DNA of 61,917 nucleotides, taken from contig JASBUK010000100.1 in assembly GCA_030147925.1 (NCBI GenBank), positions 1 through 61,917 on the forward strand. Direction: 5' to 3'. Source of the DNA: Trueperaceae bacterium (GTDB taxonomy: Bacteria; Deinococcota; Deinococci; Deinococcales; Trueperaceae). Shown here in pieces: positions 30,333-42,544 of this stretch. Each line of letters starts with the position of its first letter. Position 1 is the first letter of the stretch. The position numbers were made by a program, and so were the translations under genes. The notes below the pieces were generated by a model that saw only the letters and a list, made by a program, of their open reading frames with translations, searched no databases and was not told the origin of the DNA.

Positions 30333-30334
30333 CT
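30320..30334 (-). terminator. Short hairpin at the livF stop codon
   Basis: AGCCTT and AAGGCT flank a TTT loop and overlap the livF stop codon. On the minus strand no T-run follows, so it is a weak terminator or a 3' end stabiliser. Confidence 0.35.
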
Positions 30335-31049
30335 AGATAGAAAGATAAGCTGCCTGCACGTCCGGATCATGCAGTAACTTAGCACCACTGGCCTCCTTAA
30401 TTATCTCACCATTTTCGAGCACAAAGGCTCGGTCAGCCAGTTTTAGCGACTGCTGTACGTTTTGTTCAACCAGCACCACGGTGACTCCCTCTTTATTGAT
30501 TTGCTGCAAAGCGCCAAAGACGGTTTTGGTTAGCGCCGGGGCCAGCCCCAAACTCGGTTCATCAACGAGTAGCAATCTGGGTTTGCTCATCAGGGCGCGG
30601 CCAATGGCCAACATCTGTAATTCACCACCAGAGAGCGTACCAGCCAGTTGTGGCTCACGCTCGGCCAGCCGGGGAAAGAGCTTATAGACAAAATCCTTGG
30701 TCTTAGCGGCCTCTTTTCTGGCCTCAGGCAGATAATCCGCACCGCTCTCGATGTTTTCCAGCACCGTCATGAGCCCAAAAAGTTGTCTGCCTTCGGGTAC
30801 GTGACCCAGGCCTGCGCGCACGATTTTGGCGGCGCTAAAACCCTTTAGAGATTTGCCAAAGGCCTGTACGCTGCCGCCACGCAAAGGAATCAGTCCGGAA
30901 ATAGTTTTTAAGACGGTGGTCTTACCGGCGCCATTGGCGCCAATAATAGTGACGAACTCACCCTCGTCAACATGAAAGCTAATATTCCAGAACACTTGGA
31001 TTTTGCCATAGCTGGCGGCTAAGCCCTCAACTTTGAGTGCCGTGCTCAT
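30333..31049 (-). CDS. livF: Branched-chain-type ABC transporter ATPase
   Basis: LivF-type ATPase of a five-component importer. The 238-residue protein has Walker A GANGAGKT, signature LSGGELQMLAIGRALM, Walker B LLLVDEPSLGL, and the LivF-typical ending EQNVQQSLKLADRAFVLENGEI. It starts one base after livG. Systems of this class carry branched-chain amino acids but also amides, urea and aromatic or other carboxylic acids, and the acyl-CoA ligase operon upstream hints at the latter. Confidence 0.94.
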   Translation of the reverse strand: MSTALKVEGLAASYGKIQVFWNISFHVDEGEFVTIIGANGAGKTTVLKTISGLIPLRGGSVQAFGKSLKGFSAAKIVRAGLGHVPEGRQLFGLMTVLENIESGADYLPEARKEAAKTKDFVYKLFPRLAEREPQLAGTLSGGELQMLAIGRALMSKPRLLLVDEPSLGLAPALTKTVFGALQQINKEGVTVVLVEQNVQQSLKLADRAFVLENGEIIKEASGAKLLHDPDVQAAYLSI

Positions 31050-31050
31050 A

Positions 31051-31773
31051 TTATTCCTCCGCCCCCAAATAAGCCTCGATCACCTGGGGGTTATTAGTCA
31101 CTTGCTGATACGAGCCTTCGGCCAGTTTTTTGCCATAATCCATGACCATGACCCGGTCTGCTAAGTCGCGCACTACCGGCATTACGTGTTCTATAAAGAC
31201 GATAGTGACGCCCTTGTTACGAATGTTTTTGACCAGTTCCACGGCTTGCCGGGCTTCTCCCGGCCTGAGCCCGGCCATGACCTCGTCAAGCAGCAGAACT
31301 TTTGGCTGTGTCGCCAGCGCTCTGGCAATCTCCAGCCGTTTTTCCTGCAAAAGCGTTAATTCTTCGGCGGGAGTGTCTTTTAACGCTAGTAGTCCGGTTT
31401 GTTTAAGAACTTCCTGGGCTAGCTTTCGGCCTGTGGCTTCACTCACGCCGGACTTGCCAAAAAGCGCTCCTACCAGCACGTTTTCTTCCACCGTCATCTC
31501 GGGGAAGGGTTGCACCACCTGAAAAGCTCGACCCAAACCCAAATGACAGCGTTCAGCCGAATCTTTTATGCTGATCTCTTGACCGTTTAGCTTAAGTTTG
31601 CCAGCGCTGGGCTTGATAAGCCCAGAAATCATGTTCAGGGTAGTTGTCTTACCGGCGCCATTGGGGCCGATGATGGCGAAAATCTCTTTGGCTTCGACGG
31701 CAAAACTAAGCTCGCTAACGGCGTCCAGCCCACCAAATTTCTTGCTCAATCCCTGGGCTTGCAAAATACTCAT
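31051..31773 (-). CDS. livG: Branched-chain-type ABC transporter ATPase
   Basis: LivG-type ATPase, 240 residues. Walker A is GPNGAGKTTTLNMISG, followed by the LivG-typical GLGRAFQVVQPFPEMTVEENVLVGAL. The signature region is somewhat unusual, LTLLQEKRLEIARALA, in place of LSGGQQR, as often seen in this subfamily. Walker B is LLLDEVMAGLRP, and IEHVMPVVRDLADRVMVMDYGK completes the family pattern. It overlaps livM by four bases. Confidence 0.94.
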   Translation of the reverse strand: MSILQAQGLSKKFGGLDAVSELSFAVEAKEIFAIIGPNGAGKTTTLNMISGLIKPSAGKLKLNGQEISIKDSAERCHLGLGRAFQVVQPFPEMTVEENVLVGALFGKSGVSEATGRKLAQEVLKQTGLLALKDTPAEELTLLQEKRLEIARALATQPKVLLLDEVMAGLRPGEARQAVELVKNIRNKGVTIVFIEHVMPVVRDLADRVMVMDYGKKLAEGSYQQVTNNPQVIEAYLGAEE

Positions 31774-32792
31774 ACCGCTTCCTCTGCAGAGCGGGGCAGT
31801 TTGCGGCGACGGCGTTTCAGGCTGTCGATCAAGCCCACTATGCCCTTGGGCATAAAGAGAATTGACGCTACTAACACAATCCCGTAGCCAATCAAATAAC
31901 CCTCCTCGAAGGTGCGGCGCAGCAACTCCTCGACGCTGGCTAAACCGGCGGCGCCCAAAATCGGCCCTAAAGTGGTGTAAAGACCGCCGAAAATTGGTGT
32001 TACCAGAGCAAAGACAGTGGTGCCGATGCCAAAGGTTTCATCCGGTAAGACCGAGCCGATGCGGTGCGCTTCGCTTGCTCCTAACAGGCCCACTAAAAAG
32101 CTTGAGAGCGCAAAGGCCAAGAGCTTGTAGCGGGCGGGTTTGACTCCCATTACGGCAGCGACTTCTTCATTGGTGCGAATAGCTGTAAAGGCAGGTTTGA
32201 GTCTTGAGCGTTGTACAAGGATACTCACTAAGATGCTCAAGAGCAAAATGCCCACATAGACAAGAAAATAACTTTGATTTCTTAAGAAGGCCACTTCCCA
32301 GCGTTCCATCTCGCCAGGGATAAAAGCAGGTCTGAAAAGTGCCGCCACATTGATACCTGCAGCTCCACCTGCAATGCGGGTAGGCAGTTGTTGTACCACG
32401 GCTTTGAGCACTTCGGCAAAGGCTAAGGTCGCGATAGCAAAGTAAATACCGCGCAGCCTCAGTGTCACTGAGCCGAGCAGCAGTGCCAGCAAAACGGCCA
32501 CGATACCTCCAAGTGGAATACCAAGCCACAGCGGCCAGTCGGCTAGCTTTAGCAGTATGGCGGTGGTATATGCCCCCGCCCCGTAAAAGGCGGCATGAGC
32601 CAAAGAAAGTTGGCCGGTGCGCGCTAAGATATCCCAGGAAAGGGCTAAAATGGCTAAGCCGGTGGCGTTTATCAGCAAGGACAAATAGCTCACCGAAGCC
32701 TTGCCGTAAAGCGCTTTTAGGGTAGCGGGCAGGAAAAAGAGCAAAGCAGCCGCGAGGAGGACAAACAGCAAGTCGTAGGAAATGCGTCTCAT
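31770..32792 (-). CDS. livM: Branched-chain-type ABC transporter permease
   Basis: LivM-type permease of 340 residues with about nine hydrophobic segments. The family stretch LSLAHAAFYGAGAYTTAILL is near residue 62, and the loop RSRLKPAFTAIRTNEEVAAVMGVKPARYKLLAF near residue 195 contacts the ATPases. Its ATG at 32790-32792 overlaps the stop of a cryptic 52-residue reading frame, not that of livH, so translation seems coupled through that frame. Confidence 0.93.
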   Translation of the reverse strand: MRRISYDLLFVLLAAALLFFLPATLKALYGKASVSYLSLLINATGLAILALSWDILARTGQLSLAHAAFYGAGAYTTAILLKLADWPLWLGIPLGGIVAVLLALLLGSVTLRLRGIYFAIATLAFAEVLKAVVQQLPTRIAGGAAGINVAALFRPAFIPGEMERWEVAFLRNQSYFLVYVGILLLSILVSILVQRSRLKPAFTAIRTNEEVAAVMGVKPARYKLLAFALSSFLVGLLGASEAHRIGSVLPDETFGIGTTVFALVTPIFGGLYTTLGPILGAAGLASVEELLRRTFEEGYLIGYGIVLVASILFMPKGIVGLIDSLKRRRRKLPRSAEEAV

Positions 32793-32947
32793 AGTGCTAT
32801 TTCCTGATAACTAATGTCGCGTTTCACAGGTTCATCAGGACCGATTATGGCAACGCTGGAGGCTCGAGCGCTGAGATGACGTGCAGCGGCGCTGCCGATA
32901 AGCCCTTTGCCGATAACCAGATAGTCAAAACGCCCACTTAAATTCAT
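32789..32947 (-). CDS. Cryptic 52-residue gene: FAD/NAD-binding fragment inside the liv operon
   Basis: The gap between livH and livM is filled exactly by a 52-codon frame. Its ATG (32945-32947) overlaps the livH stop and its stop (32789-32791) overlaps the livM start, both as ATGA. The product begins MNLSGRFDYLVIGKGLIGSA and continues through AARHLSARASSVAIIGPDEP. This is the beta-alpha-beta dinucleotide-binding start (GxGxxG) of a DadA/GlpO-type FAD oxidoreductase, ending just after the second strand. No continuation of the enzyme is seen in any frame. It is either a remnant kept for translational coupling or a real small protein. Confidence 0.75.
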   Translation of the reverse strand: MNLSGRFDYLVIGKGLIGSAAARHLSARASSVAIIGPDEPVKRDISYQEIAL

Positions 32948-33810
32948 GCCAGCCTCCGGCTGCGGGCGATTAGCACCACAAAAATAATTGCGAAAAAGAC
33001 GGCGTTTCTCAGCGCGTCACCATTAGGAACCAGCGTGGCCACCAGAGATTCGGAGAGGGCTACTACCAACGAGGCCCACAGAATGCCACGGATATTGCCC
33101 AGCCCGGCTAAAACCACGATGGCAAAGGCCTTTAAGGTAAAGGCAAAACCCACGATGGGCGTAGGGGACTGGATGACGGCAATCATCACGCCGCCAAGAC
33201 CTGCTAACAGGGCCGAAAGCGCAAAAGTGACCAGGTAAACTCGGTTGACCTCGAGCCCAATAAGGCTGGCGCCCATGCGGTTTTGCGCTACTGCTCGCAT
33301 GGCCCGACCTGCCGGAGTCTTTAGCAGGGCATAATATAGGCTGCCCACAATGACAAGAGAAATAAGAAAGCTGGCCAGCGGTACCAAACCAATACTGACG
33401 CCGCCAAGCTGGTAGCCGATAGAGCGGTAGGCCACGCTACTGATCGTGCGCGGATCACCACCCCAAATAAGCAAGGCTAAATTTTGCAGGATGATACTGA
33501 TGCCAAAAGTAAGGAGCATCTGATTGAGCTCGGGAGCTTTTAAGACATAACGAATGCTGCTTTGATAGATAGCGCCTCCCAAGAGAAACAGGGTCGGTGC
33601 AACAAAAAACAAAGAGATAACAGGGTCGAAGCCAAAGCTGATAAACAGTTGATAGGTGATAAAGGCCCCGACCATAAAAAATTCGCCATGGGCGAAGTTG
33701 ACAATGCCAATTACACCGATGGCCAAGGCCAGGCCCACCGAAACCAGCGCATACAGCCCGGAGGCCAAGATACCGGAAACAATCCCTTGTAACAGAAGCG
33801 TTAAATCCAT
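32944..33810 (-). CDS. livH: Branched-chain-type ABC transporter permease
   Basis: LivH-type permease, 288 residues with about eight hydrophobic segments. Typical motifs are GLYALVSVGLALAIGVIGIVNFAHGEFFMVGAF near the start and RAMRAVAQNRMGASLIGLEVNRVY in the ATPase-contact loop, then AVIQSPTPIVGFAFTLKAFAIVVLAGLGNI. I chose ATG 33810 (MDLTLLLQG), where homologues start. The longer frame to 33843 would run through the post-livJ hairpin. Confidence 0.93.
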   Translation of the reverse strand: MDLTLLLQGIVSGILASGLYALVSVGLALAIGVIGIVNFAHGEFFMVGAFITYQLFISFGFDPVISLFFVAPTLFLLGGAIYQSSIRYVLKAPELNQMLLTFGISIILQNLALLIWGGDPRTISSVAYRSIGYQLGGVSIGLVPLASFLISLVIVGSLYYALLKTPAGRAMRAVAQNRMGASLIGLEVNRVYLVTFALSALLAGLGGVMIAVIQSPTPIVGFAFTLKAFAIVVLAGLGNIRGILWASLVVALSESLVATLVPNGDALRNAVFFAIIFVVLIARSRRLA

Positions 33811-33823
33811 GAGTTTTTGTTTA

Positions 33824-33845
33824 GGGTGCACCCCAGGATGCACCC
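33824..33845 (-). terminator. Hairpin between livJ and livH
   Basis: GGGTGCA (33824-33830) and TGCACCC (33839-33845) flank an eight-base loop. On the minus strand the stem is followed by TAAACAAAAA. Like the hairpin at 9294, it sits directly after a binding-protein gene inside an operon, and probably keeps receptor mRNA more abundant than permease mRNA. Confidence 0.65.
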
Positions 33846-33855
33846 CTATAAAGAA

Positions 33856-35046
33856 TTAGCGGCAGCTCCGCAGCGGCGCGGTAGCTTTCTCGGGCGGATA
33901 GACAATCTCGCGTTTACCGTCCTGATACTGGAATACCAGCCACATGCTCTCATCAAAACCCTGACGGCTGGTAATTTCTGAACTGCCAAATGACCATTCA
34001 CCCATCGGTGAACGGAAACTACCATTTTCTAAAGCGGCAATTACCGCGTCCTGCTCGGTGGTGCCAGCGGTGTTGATGGCATCGGCGTAGGCCCAGAGCT
34101 GTGCATAGGCCAGCGCAGCCATGTAGTTATCGGGCTCACTGCCATGCATGGCTGTATAGGCCTCGGTAAATGCCTGCGCTTCGGCTGTGGGCAGGTTTGG
34201 CAAAAAGCCGATAAGCCCGGCGACACATTCTGCTTCGGGGGCGGCGGCAAAGTCTGTGGGCCAGCCGGGTGGGGTGCCAAAGATGTACTGCGGCGTGAAG
34301 TTAAGCTCGCGCACCTGCGAGGTCATGGGTAAGACATCGCTGTCGTAACCAATCCAGTAAAGCATGTCAGGGTTTGTCGCGGCGGCCTTGCTGATGGTTG
34401 CGCGGAAGTCGCCCGCGCCGCCAAAAAGGGTGGACTTAAAGGCTTCGCGCAAAGTCACGTCAATGCCCTGCGATTCAATAACGGCCTCCGAAGTAGCCGC
34501 GCCCGGGCCACCAAAGGCGGAGTCTTCGTGCAGTAAGCCGACAGTTTCAACGCCCGTCGAGGCAATAAAGGCATTGGCGGCTGCGGTGTTTTGATAATCC
34601 CAGGGGTGAATGTGGAAGAACCAGGGTTCGTTGCCCAGCAATTCCTCGATGCCGTCAAAACCGTCTATGCCGACCCCGGAGACCGCCCCGCCAATCCAGG
34701 TGACCAGCGGCTGGAAGGTTCTAAAAGACTCGACCAGCGCCAGCGTGACGCCGCTGGAAAAGCCGCCACCGATAAACTCGACTTCGTCTTCGGTCATGAG
34801 TTTTTCAAAAGCGGCCAGCGCCACGGCGGGGGTGGCTTGGGTATCTTCGATGATTATTTCTAAGGGTTCTCCCAGCACGCCACCGGCGGCGTTTATTTCC
34901 TCAAGCGCCAGTTCAAAACCCGCTTTTTGGGCCTGGCCGGTACCGGCGGCACCACCGGTTAAGGGGCTTAAGATGCCGATTTTTACTGGCTGAGCATAAG
35001 CTAAGGCCAGCAGCAGTGCGGCAGTGAGGGTGAGCAGTTTTTTCAT
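33856..35046 (-). CDS. livJ: Branched-chain-type ABC transporter binding protein
   Basis: This is the periplasmic receptor of the five-component importer. The signal peptide (about 19 residues) ends in ALAYAQ, then PVKIGILSPLTGGAAGTGQAQKAGFELALEEINAAGGVLG, the standard start of Leu/Ile/Val-type receptors. GLLHEDSAFGGPGAATSEAV and PDMLYWIGYDSDVLPMTSQ follow. The 396-residue length is normal. I chose the second ATG (35046), six bases after AAGGAG; an ATG two codons earlier abuts that site. Its likely ligand is a carboxylic acid rather than an amino acid, judged only from the adjacent acyl-CoA ligase operon. Confidence 0.93.
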   Translation of the reverse strand: MKKLLTLTAALLLALAYAQPVKIGILSPLTGGAAGTGQAQKAGFELALEEINAAGGVLGEPLEIIIEDTQATPAVALAAFEKLMTEDEVEFIGGGFSSGVTLALVESFRTFQPLVTWIGGAVSGVGIDGFDGIEELLGNEPWFFHIHPWDYQNTAAANAFIASTGVETVGLLHEDSAFGGPGAATSEAVIESQGIDVTLREAFKSTLFGGAGDFRATISKAAATNPDMLYWIGYDSDVLPMTSQVRELNFTPQYIFGTPPGWPTDFAAAPEAECVAGLIGFLPNLPTAEAQAFTEAYTAMHGSEPDNYMAALAYAQLWAYADAINTAGTTEQDAVIAALENGSFRSPMGEWSFGSSEITSRQGFDESMWLVFQYQDGKREIVYPPEKATAPLRSCR

Positions 35047-35215
35047 AAACATCTCCTTTGCAAGTTCGGTTGATTGGGCTTAACCGCGGCTAAATTGCGA
35101 GGTTTTAAACGGCTTCTGTCGATTTGCATTCCGCTGGGCGAGAAGAGTTTGGGCCGAGGCGCTGGCTTTTCTTTTTCTGTAACGCAAAACCCTTTAACCG
35201 TCATCTTTCTCTAAG

Positions 35216-35995
35216 TCATGGCAGGCCCTCCAGAAAGTCATGCAAGATTTTGTTGAATCTCGGCGGGTCTTCGACTTGGGGAGAATGTCCGATACCGTCT
35301 AAGAGTTTGAGCTGGGCCTGGGTAAAGGCGCTGGTGGTTTCCCTAGCCATTGCTTCGCTTATGAGGTAGTCAAGCGCTCCGCGCAGCACCAGCACCGGGC
35401 AAGTGACGGCGCTTAAATCAGCACTGACATTAAAGACCTCTAGGGCTCGAGCATTACCGCTATAGGCCGCCGGTTGCATCACTAGAGCGTCTTGTACTAA
35501 GTCTTCAAAATAGGCGGGTTGCCCTAAGGCCATGGTCGGCGCCAAGGCCTGGCGCATAAGCTCGGCATTGCCTTTTAGAGATTCTAAGAGGGGATATTGC
35601 TCTTCAGGGGTCTTGAGCCCGCTGGGCGGGGCCGAGGACAGCAGTATCAGCCCGCTTAGTGTCTGAGGGTGTCTAGCGGCATAAGCCTGCGCTACAGCGC
35701 CGCCCAAAGAATGCCCTAGTAGTGTAGCTGAGGAAAGCTCGAGCCCTGCAATAAATGCCTGTAAATAAGTAGCATAGGCTGCAATGCTGATCTCTGTAGG
35801 CAGAGCCGCTGACTCGCCGAAATTGGGTAAATCCAGGGCTATAACCCGCCAGCCGGCAATCGGAGCCTGTAATTGTTCTTTAAACCAGCGTTTGCTGGCA
35901 AAATTGCCGTGAATGCAGACGAGGGGTCGTCCTGCCCCGGCCTCCTGATAGGCTAGTGAGACGTCACTTAAATCCAAACGTTTAACTAGGGTCAT
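35216..35995 (-). CDS. Alpha/beta-hydrolase (second of two)
   Basis: This is a predicted serine hydrolase of 259 residues. The nucleophile elbow is LGHSLGGAVAQAY (about residues 88-100), the acid is probably Asp in LVLRGALDYLISE, and the histidine is in GIGHSPQVEDP near the C-terminus. The oxyanion region is VCIHGNFASKRWF. It overlaps the preceding hydrolase gene by 14 bases and is the last gene of the TetR-KAS III-ligase-hydrolase-hydrolase operon. Lactonase, esterase or carbon-carbon hydrolase activity are all possible. Confidence 0.88.
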   Translation of the reverse strand: MTLVKRLDLSDVSLAYQEAGAGRPLVCIHGNFASKRWFKEQLQAPIAGWRVIALDLPNFGESAALPTEISIAAYATYLQAFIAGLELSSATLLGHSLGGAVAQAYAARHPQTLSGLILLSSAPPSGLKTPEEQYPLLESLKGNAELMRQALAPTMALGQPAYFEDLVQDALVMQPAAYSGNARALEVFNVSADLSAVTCPVLVLRGALDYLISEAMARETTSAFTQAQLKLLDGIGHSPQVEDPPRFNKILHDFLEGLP

Positions 35996-36842
35996 AAGAA
36001 TCTTCCGTTTCTCCCCAAAGCGGGGTCATAAAATCCTTATGGCGAGCAATGAAACCCCGTAATATTTTGCTCACCGCCTCCGGACGTTCTATTGGTGCGG
36101 CGTGACCGGCATGATCGACAGTAACCAACATGCCGTAACGCGCCCACTCGACGATTTCATGGCTGTAGCGTAGCGGGGTGAGGATGTCCTCCTGGCCGAC
36201 TATAGCCAGCAAAGGGCCTTCATAGCTACGCAGACTCTTGTGGGCATTGCCAAAGCTGAGCAATCCGTCAAGCAGATAGCTGATTATTTCCGGATCAGCG
36301 GCGGCGGCCTGCTCACGAAAGGCGGCAATTTCCGCAGCGTGTTGATTGACAAAGGAATGCCCCCAGACCCAGGGAGTGGCGACATCAAAACGCAATGCCG
36401 CGCCACCGCTGTTAAGCGCGGCCTTCCAGGACTCTACGATTAGCTTGAGCATAGGATCGACATGTACAAAAGAGTCAATAACGCTCAAACTCAGGATGCG
36501 CTGTGCTGCTGTGCTAAGCTCACCGGCGACAATCATGGCAATCAGTCCGCCGTTGCTTAAGCCCACTAAATGAACTTTTTCTAGTTTAAGACCATTCAAG
36601 AGAGATTTTAAGTCAGCGGCGTGTTGCGTGGGTGAATATGGCCCCGGGGGTTTGTCGGATTGACCCTGGCCGCGACAGTCGTAGACCAGCGTCCGGTAAC
36701 TGTCGGCAAAAGCCGTGGCTACGCCGTTCCAGGCGCTAGTGTCCACGGTTAGACCATTGACAAAGACTATGGTTTCTTCTGTGGCGGCGCCGCCTAACTG
36801 ATAGTAAAGCTCGATGTCGGCGGCAACATTAAGGCGTGCCAT
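35982..36842 (-). CDS. Alpha/beta-hydrolase (enol-lactonase-like)
   Basis: This is a predicted serine hydrolase of 286 residues resembling 3-oxoadipate enol-lactonases. It has IVFVNGLTVDTSAWNGVA, YDCRGQGQSDKP, the nucleophile elbow GLSNGGLIAM (serine near residue 95), acid in VGQEDILTPLRYS and histidine in DHAGHAAPIERPE. It overlaps the acyl-CoA ligase gene by 14 bases and the next hydrolase by 14. Its partners suggest opening of a ring or cleavage of a beta-diketone before CoA activation. Confidence 0.88.
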   Translation of the reverse strand: MARLNVAADIELYYQLGGAATEETIVFVNGLTVDTSAWNGVATAFADSYRTLVYDCRGQGQSDKPPGPYSPTQHAADLKSLLNGLKLEKVHLVGLSNGGLIAMIVAGELSTAAQRILSLSVIDSFVHVDPMLKLIVESWKAALNSGGAALRFDVATPWVWGHSFVNQHAAEIAAFREQAAAADPEIISYLLDGLLSFGNAHKSLRSYEGPLLAIVGQEDILTPLRYSHEIVEWARYGMLVTVDHAGHAAPIERPEAVSKILRGFIARHKDFMTPLWGETEDSYDPS

Positions 36843-38340
36843 GCTTGTCTCCTTTGAGAGAACCGGGTGTAGAGCTATGCAAAAAGTCGTTGGCCAGCTC
36901 AGTTTTTAAGATTTTGCCTGCACCGCTTTTGGGCAGGGCATCATAAAAATAGATGTGTTTGGGAATCTTGTAGTTTGCCAGCCGCCTGCCCAAATAGCTC
37001 TTAAGCTCAGCAGCACCCAAACTAGCGCCAGGTCGCAGTACCACAGCGGTCAAGCCCACCTCGCCCCAGCGCGCATCAGGCACGCCCAGAACCGCACATT
37101 CTGAAATATCCGGGTGTTGATAAAGTGCATTTTCAATTTCTACCGGGAAGATATTTTCGCCGCCGGAAATAAACATTTCCTTGCGTCTACCCACGATGTA
37201 AAAAAAGCCTTCTTCATCTTGTTCGGCCAAGTCACCCGTCCACAGCCAGCCGTCGCGTAGCGCCTTAGCGCTGTCTTCGGGCCGTTCAAAATAACCTGTA
37301 AAGACGTGGGGGCCGTGCAGGGTTAGCTCACCAACTTCGCCTGTTTTTACGGCCTGACCCGCAGTATTGCGAATGACTGCCTCGGCGTGCATTACCGTTT
37401 TGCCAACCGAGGTAGGGCGCTTTTCTGCGTCGCTAAGTTCCATGGCAAAGCAATTTACTCCGGCTTCGGTAAGGCCGTAACCTTGTTTAAAGCGAATGCC
37501 CCGACGTGCAAAAGCCACGCGTACAGGTTCTGGGCAGGGGGCGCCACCAGAAATCGCCCAGCGCACGCTGCTTAAGTCGGCGTTGGCAAAAGTAGGGTGG
37601 TCGCTGAGCATTTTAAACATCGTCGGCACCATAAAAAGGATGGTGCAGCGCTCTTGAGCCACCAGCTCCAGGTATTCGGCGGGGTCGAAGTTTTGCTCTA
37701 AAACAACCCTGGCTCCCAAATGCAGCAAGGGCAGGGTGAAGGCGTTGACGGCGGCATGAAAACAGGGCGTGGCCTGAATTACGCAATCGTCGTCGCGCAG
37801 ACCCCAGGAGCAAATGGTGTTTACGGCGTTATAAAAGCCCTGCCGGTAAGCTTGCATAGCTCCCTTGGGAATGCCGGTAGTGCCGCCGGTAAAGAGGATC
37901 ATCTGGGTATCTTCGGCCTTCAAATCTGGCGTTGGTGGGACGGGGGCGGCGGTATTGAGCCAGCTTTCGTAATCTGTTAGCGCTAAGCTCGTAGCGCCGG
38001 TGGCTGCGGCTGCGGCGGCGTTGGCCTCATCAAAAAAGAGCAAGCGCGGGCGCACATAAGCGGCGATTTGCGCGTTTTCAGCCGGGGAGAGCCGATAGTT
38101 AAAAGGCGTGTAGCTATAACCCAGTTTGGCGGTGGCCAGAATCAAATCGATATGGGCTAGGTGGTTTTGCGCCAAGATGCTGACGCGGTCGCCCTTTTTA
38201 ACGCCTGCCTGGGCCAAACGGGCGGCAAGCCGCGTGGCGCGTTCATTTAGGGTTTTATAGCTATACCACTGTCCCGCAAAATACAGCGCCTTGCGCTCAG
38301 GAGTCAGTTGGGCGCGTTTTGCCGCTAAGTCAAAGATCAT
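36829..38340 (-). CDS. AMP-forming acyl-CoA ligase
   Basis: This is an ATP-dependent CoA ligase of the ANL (adenylate-forming) superfamily, 503 residues. The AMP-binding loop is ILFTGGTTGIPKGAMQA (about residue 151), then GYGLTEAGVN, WLWTGDLAEQDEEGFFYIVGRRKEMFISGGENIFPVEIE in the hinge region, and the catalytic lysine in KSGAGKILKTEL. It activates a fatty, aromatic or other organic acid to its CoA thioester. It overlaps the KAS III-like gene by four bases and the hydrolase by 14, so it is part of a tightly coupled catabolic operon. Confidence 0.93.
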   Translation of the reverse strand: MIFDLAAKRAQLTPERKALYFAGQWYSYKTLNERATRLAARLAQAGVKKGDRVSILAQNHLAHIDLILATAKLGYSYTPFNYRLSPAENAQIAAYVRPRLLFFDEANAAAAAATGATSLALTDYESWLNTAAPVPPTPDLKAEDTQMILFTGGTTGIPKGAMQAYRQGFYNAVNTICSWGLRDDDCVIQATPCFHAAVNAFTLPLLHLGARVVLEQNFDPAEYLELVAQERCTILFMVPTMFKMLSDHPTFANADLSSVRWAISGGAPCPEPVRVAFARRGIRFKQGYGLTEAGVNCFAMELSDAEKRPTSVGKTVMHAEAVIRNTAGQAVKTGEVGELTLHGPHVFTGYFERPEDSAKALRDGWLWTGDLAEQDEEGFFYIVGRRKEMFISGGENIFPVEIENALYQHPDISECAVLGVPDARWGEVGLTAVVLRPGASLGAAELKSYLGRRLANYKIPKHIYFYDALPKSGAGKILKTELANDFLHSSTPGSLKGDKHGTP

Positions 38341-39341
38341 TGCCGCTCACCCCAACGCAAACAAATGGCGTTCCAGACATAACCCACGCCTGCCGCTACC
38401 AGCACGACCAAATCGCCGGTTTTCAGGCGGCCTTGCTGCTCGGCCAGCTTTAGGCTTAGGAATTGATCAATCTGACCCAAGTGGCCGTAGTCAGTGAGGT
38501 AGATAGATTGCTCGGGGTTTAGCTCGAGCTGTTCAAGAAGATAATCATGCGCACTGCGTTTGACGTGCAGCATGGCCAAGTAGTCGATATCCGCTACGCT
38601 GTAACCGGATTTGCCGACCGCGTCTTTTACCACCTTGATGAAATTCGCTAAGGATTTTTCCTCCAGCCGGGTTTTCATGCCTGCCGGATCGGCTACTTCT
38701 AGCTTATAGCGCCCGGTATTTTCCTGGTTAAGCGGCTCCTTAGTGCCACCTACCGGCACCAGCACATCGAGCGAAAAGCTGCCGTCGGTGATGATGGCGG
38801 ATTCCAGAATTTCGTTTTTGGCCGTGCCACGTTGCAACAGCGCCGCCGCGCCACCAGCGCCAAGGTTGTACATAAAGCGTACCCTGGGGTTAGCAAAGTT
38901 AATCAAGTCGCCATTGCGATAGCCGCCTGCTACCAGCACGGTATTCACGCTCTTATCGGCACGAATTAAGTCTTTGGCCTGTTTTAATGCCAGGACGCCG
39001 CTGCCACATTTCTGACCGAGATCATAGGCATAGGCGCTAAAAGCGCCTAAGTCATGGGCCAGTTTGATGCCTGCGGTCCAGACCGGATATTCTTTGTATT
39101 CCTCGGTGATTGAGATGACTACATCGATATCGTCGGCCACAACCTGGGCCTGTTCAAGGGCTTCCTGCGCCGCCCAAACACCCATGGCGGTGGGGTGATC
39201 TTCCGGCCCTGGTTTAGGTTTGGCCCTTAAACCCAGTTTTTCTTTGACCACCCACTCGGACAGACCGCTAGCCTGGGCGATTTCTGCAGCCGTAATGCGC
39301 CCTTCGGGCACATAGACCCCTATACCGCTGATGCCGATCAT
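38337..39341 (-). CDS. KAS III/HMG-CoA synthase-like thiolase-fold enzyme
   Basis: This is a 334-residue thiolase-fold condensing or cleaving enzyme. It begins IGISGIGVYVPEGRITAAEIAQ and has the catalytic cysteine in DLGQKCGSGVLALKQA (about residue 112). A candidate active-site His lies in MLHVKRSAHDYLL. Where FabH enzymes carry an Asn in the next motif, this protein has YGHLGQIDQF, so the Asn seems replaced by His. Such a change and its catabolic neighbours make classical fatty-acid initiation unlikely; a thiolytic or hydrolytic role on a beta-keto acid is an inference. It overlaps the TetR gene by four bases. Confidence 0.82.
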   Translation of the reverse strand: MIGISGIGVYVPEGRITAAEIAQASGLSEWVVKEKLGLRAKPKPGPEDHPTAMGVWAAQEALEQAQVVADDIDVVISITEEYKEYPVWTAGIKLAHDLGAFSAYAYDLGQKCGSGVLALKQAKDLIRADKSVNTVLVAGGYRNGDLINFANPRVRFMYNLGAGGAAALLQRGTAKNEILESAIITDGSFSLDVLVPVGGTKEPLNQENTGRYKLEVADPAGMKTRLEEKSLANFIKVVKDAVGKSGYSVADIDYLAMLHVKRSAHDYLLEQLELNPEQSIYLTDYGHLGQIDQFLSLKLAEQQGRLKTGDLVVLVAAGVGYVWNAICLRWGERQ

Positions 39342-39937
39342 GACCCCTCCGGTGTTAATCCGTGGGCAATAAAGTCAAAGGTTGTCGCCATTACCTCAGC
39401 AGGTGGGGTAAGCCCTTCCCAAATGACATAGCGCAGACCCAGAAAGTGAGCTATGCCCATGAGCGCCCAGGCTTGTGCCTCGGCTTCTCCCTGGCGGATT
39501 TGCCCATTGCCTTGAGCCTTTTTTAGCCCTGCGGCATAGGCGCTGGCCAACGTTTGATAGTATTCGCGGTAGATATCCTCATCGACAAATTGCGCTTGCA
39601 TTACCACCCGGTAAAGGTTTTTGTGTTGGCGGCAAAACTCGATAAAGGCGTTAAAACCTACGCGCTCGAGCTCGAGCCTTTCCTCTATACCCTCAATTGC
39701 CTGAGTAAGCGTATGCCTTAATTCCTGACCCATGTGACGGACTAAAGCTCTTAAGATATCTTCCTTGCTGGGGAAATAAAGATAAAACGTTCCCTGGCCT
39801 ACACCGGCGCGTTGTGTGATGCTCGAAACCGAAGCGGCATGAAAGCCGCGCTCGCCAAACTCCAACTCGGCGGCAGCAAGCAGCTTTTGGCGAGTTACTT
39901 CGCCCCTGGCGGTAGCAGGCTGTGGTAAGTCTGACAA
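39338..39937 (-). CDS. TetR-family transcriptional regulator
   Basis: This is a DNA-binding repressor of the TetR/AcrR family, 199 residues. The N-terminal helix-turn-helix reads TRQKLLAAAELEFGERGFHAASVSSITQRAGVGQGTFYLYFPSKEDILRAL. The C-terminal ligand domain resembles the FadR/AcrR group. The only in-frame starts are TTG; I chose 39937, preceded by GAAAGGAT. It is the first gene of the operon and a strong palindrome at 40032-40052 is its likely operator. The inducer may be the CoA thioester made by the ligase. Confidence 0.92.
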   Translation of the reverse strand: MSDLPQPATARGEVTRQKLLAAAELEFGERGFHAASVSSITQRAGVGQGTFYLYFPSKEDILRALVRHMGQELRHTLTQAIEGIEERLELERVGFNAFIEFCRQHKNLYRVVMQAQFVDEDIYREYYQTLASAYAAGLKKAQGNGQIRQGEAEAQAWALMGIAHFLGLRYVIWEGLTPPAEVMATTFDFIAHGLTPEGS

Positions 39938-39986
39938 GATCGATCCTTTCAAAGCATCTGAAATCCGACCCAGAAAACCATTGTGA

Positions 39987-40482: not shown

Positions 40483-40795
40483 CAACTCACCTCCTGGCAA
40501 TGCGGATATAGTGCGAGTCATGCTTTGAGTGAGGCAGATAACAAGAAGTTATGACTCGGCTAATTTTATTATTAGAACAGTTCACTTCGGATTTGCCCAG
40601 GGATATTTGTCCTCAACGCAATTTCTCTCATTTTCTTAAGAGGGTCACTACTGGTTTGTTCTGTATAGGATGACCGTTTTGGATGGCTGTGCCTTGTGGC
40701 GGTACAACAGTTGTTAAGGACGTATTGGCTTCTATACTGTGCTCTGTGAGCAGCCTTAATACTTGTCTTGTCGCCAAAGATTGAGGGGGTCTGTG
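40483..40795. other. Divergent intergenic region, small protein gene and aceK
   Basis: This 313-base region must hold the promoters of two diverging genes. A possible aceK promoter is TTGTTA (40711-40716) and TATACT (40733-40738) with a 16-base spacer. I see no reading frame, no strong palindrome and no repeat-family copy in the rest. Confidence 0.5.
40711..40738 (+). promoter_or_regulatory. Possible aceK promoter
   Basis: TTGTTA and TATACT boxes separated by 16 bases point toward aceK, whose start is about 58 bases past the -10 box. The -10 box is good and the -35 box fair. Confidence 0.45.
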
Positions 40796-42544
40796 GTGCA
40801 AATGCTCTCTGACAGTAGGCGTGCCAATTTAGCGGCTACCATTATCTTTGAGTCCTTTGGCGCTTACCGGAGCCGTTTTGAATCCATAAGTCAACGGGCC
40901 AAGCTACGTTTTGAGCACCAAGACTGGCTAGGCATGCGCGAAGATGCCGCCGAACGCTTAGCGCTGCGTCGGCAGATGGTCGATATCGCGGTGGCTCAGT
41001 TGCGCTCGCTTTTGGCCGAGCGTTTGCATGACAAGTTTGTCTGGGTGAGCATGAAGGCCGTTTATTCGGGCTTTTTGGCTGATCTTGACGACTGGGAGCT
41101 GGCCGAGACTTTTTTCAATTCGGTGACTCGCCGCATCTTTAGCACAGTTGGCGTAGACGCGCAGATTGAGTTTGTGCATACCGATTTTGCCATGCCGCCC
41201 AGAGCAGCGACCTTTTCGATTTATCGCAGTTATGACCCTGCCCCCACGCTAACGGCGCTGGTGGCCGCAATTGTGGCCGATTATGGTTTTAAGTCAGGTT
41301 TTGCAAACATAAAGCGTGACACGCGGCTGGCCGCCACCGAAATAGAGACGCATATCAAGATAGAGAGTGGGCATAGCGGTCCAATAGGGCTCGAGCGCAT
41401 CGAAATGCTCAAATCCGTCTTTTACCGGGGTAAAGCCGCCTATCTGTTAGGGCGCATCATCAGCAATACACGGGTGATACCCCTGGCACTGGCCTTGCTT
41501 AACACGCCCCAGGGTATTGTCATCGATGCCGCATTGCTCAAAGAGGACGATGTCAGCATTCTCTTTAGTTTTACTTATTCCTATTTTCATGTCTTGGCAA
41601 AGCGCCCCTATGATCTGGTGCAGTTTCTGCACAGCATAATTCCGCGTAAGCGCTTAGGTGAGCTTTATATTGCCGTTGGTTTTCACAAACACGGCAAGAC
41701 CGAGCTTTACCGCTATCTGTTACAGCGCTTAGCCGAAACCGAAGCTTGTCTGGACGTAGCGCCAGGCAAGCGCGGCATGGTCATGGCGGTTTTTACCATG
41801 CCGGGTCTTGACTTTGTCTTTAAGATCATCAAGGATCGCTTTGACCCGCCAAAAAACACCAGCCGCGAGGCGATTTTGGCTAAATACCGGCTGGTCTTTA
41901 AGCATGACCGGGTCGGACGGCTGATTGACGCCCAGACCTTTGAACACCTAAAGCTGCAAAGGCGGCATTTTTCCGCCGAGTTGTTAGAGGACTTGCAGCG
42001 CACTGCCGCTAAGACGGTGCGGGTCGAAGGTGACGATGTCATCATCGAGCATGCTTATATCGAGCGACGCGTGATCCCGCTGGATATTTACCTGCGTCAG
42101 GCAAGCGAAGAACAGGCCAAAGCAGCCGTGATTGATTATGGCCAGGCGATAAAAGACCTAGCGGTCAGCAATATCTTCCCGGGAGATTTGCTGGTTAAAA
42201 ACTTTGGTGTTACCCGCCATGACCGAGTGGTTTTTTATGACTACGATGAACTTAGCCTCTTGACAGACTGTAATTTTCGCAAATTGCCACAGCCGCAAAC
42301 CCACGAACAGGAGATGGCGGCGGAGCCCTGGTACTACGTGGCCGAGGCGGACGTTTTCCCCGAGGAGTTCCTACCCTTTTTAGGCATTCCCAAAGCGCTC
42401 AAGAGTGTTTTTGTGGCTAAACAGGGAGACCTGCTTAGCCCGGATTTTTGGCAGCAGACCCAGGCGCGCATTATGGCCGGTGAAATTATCAGCATTTTGC
42501 CCTATGACCGCTCTCGGCAGCTACAGCTTGATTTAAGCTCGTGA
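40796..42544 (+). CDS. aceK: Isocitrate dehydrogenase kinase/phosphatase
   Basis: AceK phosphorylates and dephosphorylates isocitrate dehydrogenase, sending isocitrate to the glyoxylate bypass during growth on acetate. The roughly 582-residue protein shows the N-terminal regulatory half (IFESFGAYRSRFESISQRAKLRFEHQDW). Its kinase half has FHKHGKTELYRYL, FVFKIIKDRFDPPKNTSR, VIDYGQAIKDLAVSNIFPGDLLVKNFGVTRHDRVVFYDYDEL and EPWYYVAEADVFPEEF. All are AceK signatures. I favour GTG 40796, six bases after AGGGGG; ATG 40802 and a TTG at 40763 are alternatives. No aceA or aceB lies beside it. It overlaps the next gene by four bases. Confidence 0.93.
   Translation: MQMLSDSRRANLAATIIFESFGAYRSRFESISQRAKLRFEHQDWLGMREDAAERLALRRQMVDIAVAQLRSLLAERLHDKFVWVSMKAVYSGFLADLDDWELAETFFNSVTRRIFSTVGVDAQIEFVHTDFAMPPRAATFSIYRSYDPAPTLTALVAAIVADYGFKSGFANIKRDTRLAATEIETHIKIESGHSGPIGLERIEMLKSVFYRGKAAYLLGRIISNTRVIPLALALLNTPQGIVIDAALLKEDDVSILFSFTYSYFHVLAKRPYDLVQFLHSIIPRKRLGELYIAVGFHKHGKTELYRYLLQRLAETEACLDVAPGKRGMVMAVFTMPGLDFVFKIIKDRFDPPKNTSREAILAKYRLVFKHDRVGRLIDAQTFEHLKLQRRHFSAELLEDLQRTAAKTVRVEGDDVIIEHAYIERRVIPLDIYLRQASEEQAKAAVIDYGQAIKDLAVSNIFPGDLLVKNFGVTRHDRVVFYDYDELSLLTDCNFRKLPQPQTHEQEMAAEPWYYVAEADVFPEEFLPFLGIPKALKSVFVAKQGDLLSPDFWQQTQARIMAGEIISILPYDRSRQLQLDLSS

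Follow-up and report, generated by a model that had tools for sequence, protein, structure and literature searches.

PHB is an abundant natural polyester as well as a bioplastic, and 3-hydroxybutyrate (3HB) is its building block. To our knowledge, the import into cells of the products that PHB depolymerases release is poorly defined. The catabolism of PHB and 3HB is already known, and in its classical form 3HB passes through a 3HB dehydrogenase, activation of acetoacetate and a thiolase. The gene set that we describe here shares with that route a dehydrogenase, a CoA ligase or CoA-transferase and, in some loci, a thiolase, but it differs in having a dedicated Liv-type importer, and its most conserved part is a KAS III-like enzyme. 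The combination of importer and KAS III-like enzyme appears to be new: our search of open-access papers returned no account of a Liv-type importer with such an enzyme and nothing on PRK06840 or on the gene set. The enzyme shares its fold (TM about 0.84-0.87) and length with FabH (KAS III) and keeps the nucleophilic Cys, but it is about 20% identical, has an invariant His in place of an Asn, fails the FabH cut-off, and has a CoA ligase and an importer as neighbors rather than a fatty acid synthesis cluster. The operon of PfmR (TTHB023) in Thermus thermophilus shares TetR control, an SDR, MaoC and a CoA ligase with our module, but it includes acyl-CoA dehydrogenases, and neither a KAS III-like gene nor an importer is in the listed operon (PMC7022988). 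We considered whether the PfmR regulon is the same system and rejected this, because the gene set differs.

Results

The window, by which we mean the whole stretch of 61,917 nucleotides analyzed here (contig JASBUK010000100.1 of a Trueperaceae bacterium), carries five genes head-to-tail on the minus strand, and family searches agree with the label of each. The first operon gene encodes a TetR-family regulator (39338..39952, with a TTG start as called; PF00440, 60.5 bits). It is followed by the KAS III-like enzyme of the NF005308 (PRK06840) family (38337..39341), an AMP-forming acyl-CoA ligase (36829..38340; PF00501 263.5 bits, PF13193 75 bits), and two alpha/beta hydrolases, HYD2 (35982..36842; PF00561 71.7 bits, with orthologs in Thermaceae) and HYD1 (35216..35995). 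Neighbors in this series overlap by 4, 4, 14 and 14 bp, and a gap of 163 bp separates HYD1 from a LivJHMGF importer on the same strand, a spacing compatible with a single operon of which the importer is possibly the second unit. The importer comprises a LivJ-type substrate-binding protein (33856..35052; PF13458 209.6 bits), LivH-type (32944..33843; PF02653 135.3 bits) and LivM-type (31770..32792; PF02653 124.8 bits) permeases, and LivG-type (31051..31773; PF00005 and PF12399; PRK11300 201 bits) and LivF-type (30333..31049; PF00005; PRK11614 255 bits) ATPases, so that one operon supplies all five parts of a Liv/HAAT ABC importer: the binding protein, both permeases and both ATPases. Coordinates and family searches therefore bear out the layout in the original prediction, five overlapping genes and then a same-strand importer. 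Divergent from the operon lies aceK, for isocitrate dehydrogenase kinase/phosphatase (40763..42544, plus strand; PF06315 369.5 bits, PF20423 309.9 bits), which is supportive context outside the conserved module; a metallo-beta-lactamase-fold gene comes after it.

TetR orthologs that are 47-68% identical precede the KAS gene in Trueperaceae, Gammaproteobacteria and some Bacillota. A search for operators upstream of TetR found no palindrome common to the Trueperaceae loci, and a promoter scan did no better than chance. In the gammaproteobacterial loci L026 and L079 the palindromes TGAAACATGTTTCA and TGAGACATGACTCA, which are related, stand close to the start of TetR on its upstream side; they are a possible operator that was not seen in Trueperaceae. 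Other regulators also occur: Bacilli have a large MalT/LAL-like regulator instead of TetR (for example L069:1597-4887, with TPR and BTAD domains), and in several Thermaceae a divergent MalT/LAL-like regulator replaces TetR.

The gene set recurs at about 100 other loci in Deinococcota, Bacillota, Gammaproteobacteria and Halobacteria; a single scan of a genome collection yielded 80 loci. Genes at these loci were called with a codon-usage caller and tblastn, and partners were counted by clade when they lay within 10 kb on the same strand; the genus labels Meiothermus, Thermus and Marinithermus were assigned to the relatives provisionally, with the named Thermus composti as control. Among 60 loci from Bacilli, the ligase is present in 58, LivJ in 58, a hydrolase in 59 and an SDR in 57. 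All 13 loci of Thermaceae and Marinithermus type have the ligase, Liv genes, a hydrolase and MaoC, and the 15 from Trueperaceae (a few duplicate or truncated) have the ligase in 14 and Liv genes in 12, with both hydrolases absent from some operons. The five gammaproteobacterial loci keep the ligase but not Liv. On haloarchaeal plasmids LivJGFHM stands directly before KAS, accompanied in L112 by MaoC, a hydrolase and the ligase. CoA-transferases replace the ligase at L072, L086 and L098; Moorella and two MAGs, one of Firmicutes and one of Halanaerobiales, have a CoA-transferase next to KAS and no ligase that could be found. As side observations, the haloarchaeal pairing of a KAS III-like gene with LivJGFHM is on megaplasmids (L110-L113), and in two Halobaculum loci the neighborhood also includes an amidotransferase and a long cysteine desulfurase of SufS type. 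Ten FabH loci of the same phylum served as controls and had no ligase, LivJ/H or depolymerase; apart from the FabG expected beside fatty acid synthesis genes, they gave only a few matches to ABC ATPases and SDRs, which were weak or distant. Given this recurrence and these partner-free controls, the gene set is not a chance grouping. Co-occurrence, the check that had been proposed for these genes, is thus strong, and it supports the predicted uptake and breakdown of an organic acid by what is a conserved module. The KAS family itself was found in 54 of 111 Deinococcota genomes.

The module appears to have been put together repeatedly. Between the window and Bacillus, the KAS enzymes are 55% identical, as against 37% for the ligases, 27% for LivJ and 35% for LivF; the window's LivF is nearer to one of generic type in a different genome (51%) than to that of the Bacillus module, and the Liv genes stand in different orders (JHMGF and JGFHM). 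This divergence between lineages is most simply read as repeated recruitment of importer and ligase around one KAS-like enzyme, which strengthens the functional link among them.

The KAS III-like protein passes NF005308 (487 bits against a cut-off of 315) and fails every FabH cut-off (TIGR00747, 110.6 against 292.1 bits; PRK09352, 107.5 against 249 bits), and the same genome encodes a separate FabH. It is therefore not a standard FabH, which would have undone the original prediction. Its AlphaFold model (pLDDT 95) has a FabH-like fold. The Cys-His-Asn triad of FabH is altered: Cys is kept, and in a profile comparison His287 falls on the Asn of FabH, as had been predicted, with His at this position in 105 of 105 aligned homologues. 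His259 aligns one residue after the FabH His, so we assign it a probable catalytic role from its invariance; Cys112, His259 and His287 are all invariant in the 92 catalytic-type homologues of that alignment. The other 13 form a second group with Ser instead of Cys112. Ser-type genes occur as a second KAS III-like gene upstream of LivJ at L039, L040, L049, L051, L052, L055, L063, L083 and L100, with a TetR and ligase of their own, joined at some loci by MaoC. By analogy with PqsB/PqsC, the Ser-type protein could pair with the Cys enzyme.

Does this enzyme cleave or condense? The KAS I/II enzymes, which condense, have a Cys-His-His triad too, so the His residue by itself gives no direction. The enzyme does not pass the thiolase Pfam domains (the Thiolase_N match is weak and sub-threshold, 20.7 against 26.4 bits), though it may still work in a thiolase-like manner. 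One could imagine that it condenses, with imported short acids priming or extending acyl chains, the SDR acting as reductase and MaoC as dehydratase; the triad would fit, as would the FabG-like SDR and MaoC of the relatives, whose reactions are reversible. We consider this very improbable, because the importer, depolymerases, 3HB dehydrogenase and glyoxylate-shunt neighbors indicate breakdown and because the gene is present in Halobacteria, which are without bacterial-type fatty acid synthesis. The catabolic context is a better argument for cleavage than the His residue.

The clues to the substrate come mostly from relatives. A 3HB dehydrogenase (TIGR01963, cut-off 307 bits) is the last operon gene in the Meiothermus loci L143 (335 bits) and L107 (331 bits) and in Thermus L162 (310 bits), and an ortholog is encoded elsewhere in the window's genome (318.5 bits). 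The L162 operon also contains a secreted-type PHB depolymerase (NF050058, 261 bits, cut-off 150), the only strong PF10503 match among 111 Deinococcota genomes. In Paenibacillus L080 a secreted-type PHB depolymerase (321 bits) follows KAS-PhaZ-SDR and scores 445 bits to LtPHBase, which we take to be chain 8daj. LtPHBase is a characterized PHB hydrolase (PMC11544428). A secreted PHB depolymerase gene adjoins the cluster in Tumebacillus L077, and a protein of gammaproteobacterial L079 scores as acetoacetyl-CoA reductase (330 bits against a cut-off of 302). Downstream of the cluster, the Paenibacillus loci L078 and L080 both encode isocitrate lyase and malate synthase; these glyoxylate-shunt genes, the aceK that adjoins the window's operon and the isocitrate lyase present in its genome are what would be expected for growth on acetyl-CoA. 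Three gammaproteobacterial loci have mutually related secreted lipases, one of which was tested and showed weak PhaZ7 similarity. At these loci (L032, L059, L079), KAS and ligase are found with PF13557-type outer-membrane proteins, and two of the lipases have a chitobiase-like C-terminal domain (Pfam); they are a candidate new group of PhaZ7-like depolymerases. As far as sequence comparison reaches, then, the gene set, its conservation and the family identity of the relatives' depolymerases and dehydrogenases are established. The claim that no assigned pathway has such genes was too strong, since relatives place them in PHB and 3HB metabolism, and nothing points to the cyclic ketone once offered as a substrate.

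The hydrolase of the homologous operon in Bacilli, beside KAS, is the intracellular scl-PHA depolymerase PhaZ (NF050089; 57 of 57 loci at E <= 1e-90; 459 bits for L069 and 437 bits for another, against a cut-off of 300), whereas both window hydrolases are more distant relatives below that cut-off, HYD1 scoring 116.5 bits with NF050089 as its best NCBIfam match. No PF10503 depolymerase was found in the window's genome, and single-genome searches run with no positive control detected no MaoC or PhaZ7-like relative there. With hydrolases below the cut-off and no secreted depolymerase, the step from the relatives to the window is one that we infer. PHA synthase (PF07167) was found in 0 of 111 Deinococcota genomes, so the substrate in that phylum must be external, and we rejected PHB storage by the host on the same ground. 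The window's organism may live on 3HB or oligomers that others release.

The ligase invites a different interpretation, because its closest relative among solved structures is a feruloyl-CoA synthetase (369 bits). On a hydroxycinnamate-type route, the ligase would form an aryl-enoyl-CoA, MaoC would hydrate it, the SDR would oxidize it, the KAS-like enzyme would cleave the beta-ketoacyl-CoA to aroyl-CoA and acetyl-CoA, and a hydrolase would free the aromatic acid. The Thermaceae operons, with MaoC and no recognized acyl-CoA dehydrogenase, would suit such a scheme, and the LivJ of Bacillus has a match in a binding protein from Rhodopseudomonas, with further uncharacterized binding proteins matching less strongly. 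But the LigB, intradiol dioxygenase and PaaA/BoxB families have no match in the window's genome, which leaves an aromatic product without a tested route, and the depolymerases, 3HB dehydrogenase and glyoxylate-shunt neighbors would go unexplained. We rejected the aromatic route as a poor fit to this genome and regard it as quite improbable.

Discussion

We propose that the operon serves the uptake of (R)-3-hydroxybutyrate, and probably of short 3HB oligomers freed from surrounding PHB, and their catabolism to acetyl-CoA. We put the probability of this reading, which covers substrate and direction, at roughly 0.68; we infer the substrate in the window's own organism, the sequence of steps and what the KAS-like enzyme catalyzes. 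LivJHMGF would import its putative ligand, 3HB or an oligomer, the hydrolases would convert oligomers to monomer, and the ligase, or a CoA-transferase in some anaerobes, would form the CoA ester. Oxidation would fall to a dehydrogenase for 3HB or 3HB-CoA; the window's genome encodes a 3HB dehydrogenase outside the operon. The KAS III-like enzyme, with Cys112 as nucleophile, would then perform a CoA-dependent cleavage, and the resulting acetyl-CoA would enter the glyoxylate shunt, with the whole set under TetR control.

In its simplest form the KAS-like step would be thiolysis of acetoacetyl-CoA, an assignment that we hold tentatively and at less than even odds. Some operons contain thiolase genes, and so does the window's genome; with these ordinary thiolases present, there is no obvious need for another acetoacetyl-CoA thiolase. 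Within the same 3HB/PHB pathway, the enzyme might instead thiolyse the ester of an oligomer (3HB-3HB + CoA giving 3HB-CoA + 3HB), so that the ester energy is kept and the ligase activates the freed monomer. This would account for the persistence of KAS and ligase where both hydrolases are missing and for a thiolase alongside KAS. Acyltransferases are found among the KAS III relatives that lack the Asn; CerJ, one of the matches of our enzyme, is an example. A Ser112 paralog also exists. We know of no KAS-fold enzyme that thiolyses such an oxo-ester, and we think this reaction unlikely. We speculate, as a rather unlikely extension, that the Cys-His-His family, sometimes with its Ser paralog, is a new type of enzyme that uses CoA to cleave 3HB oligomers to 3HB-CoA, saving ATP, in a Liv-importer PHB-utilization module of bacteria and archaea.

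Under the preferred reading, 3HB uptake and catabolism, the NF005308 family, until now annotated only as "3-oxoacyl-ACP synthase", acquires a class of substrates and can be assayed directly. Half of the searched Deinococcota genomes encode a member of that family, as do many Bacilli and haloarchaea, and the module points to Liv-type importers for the uptake of PHB depolymerase products.
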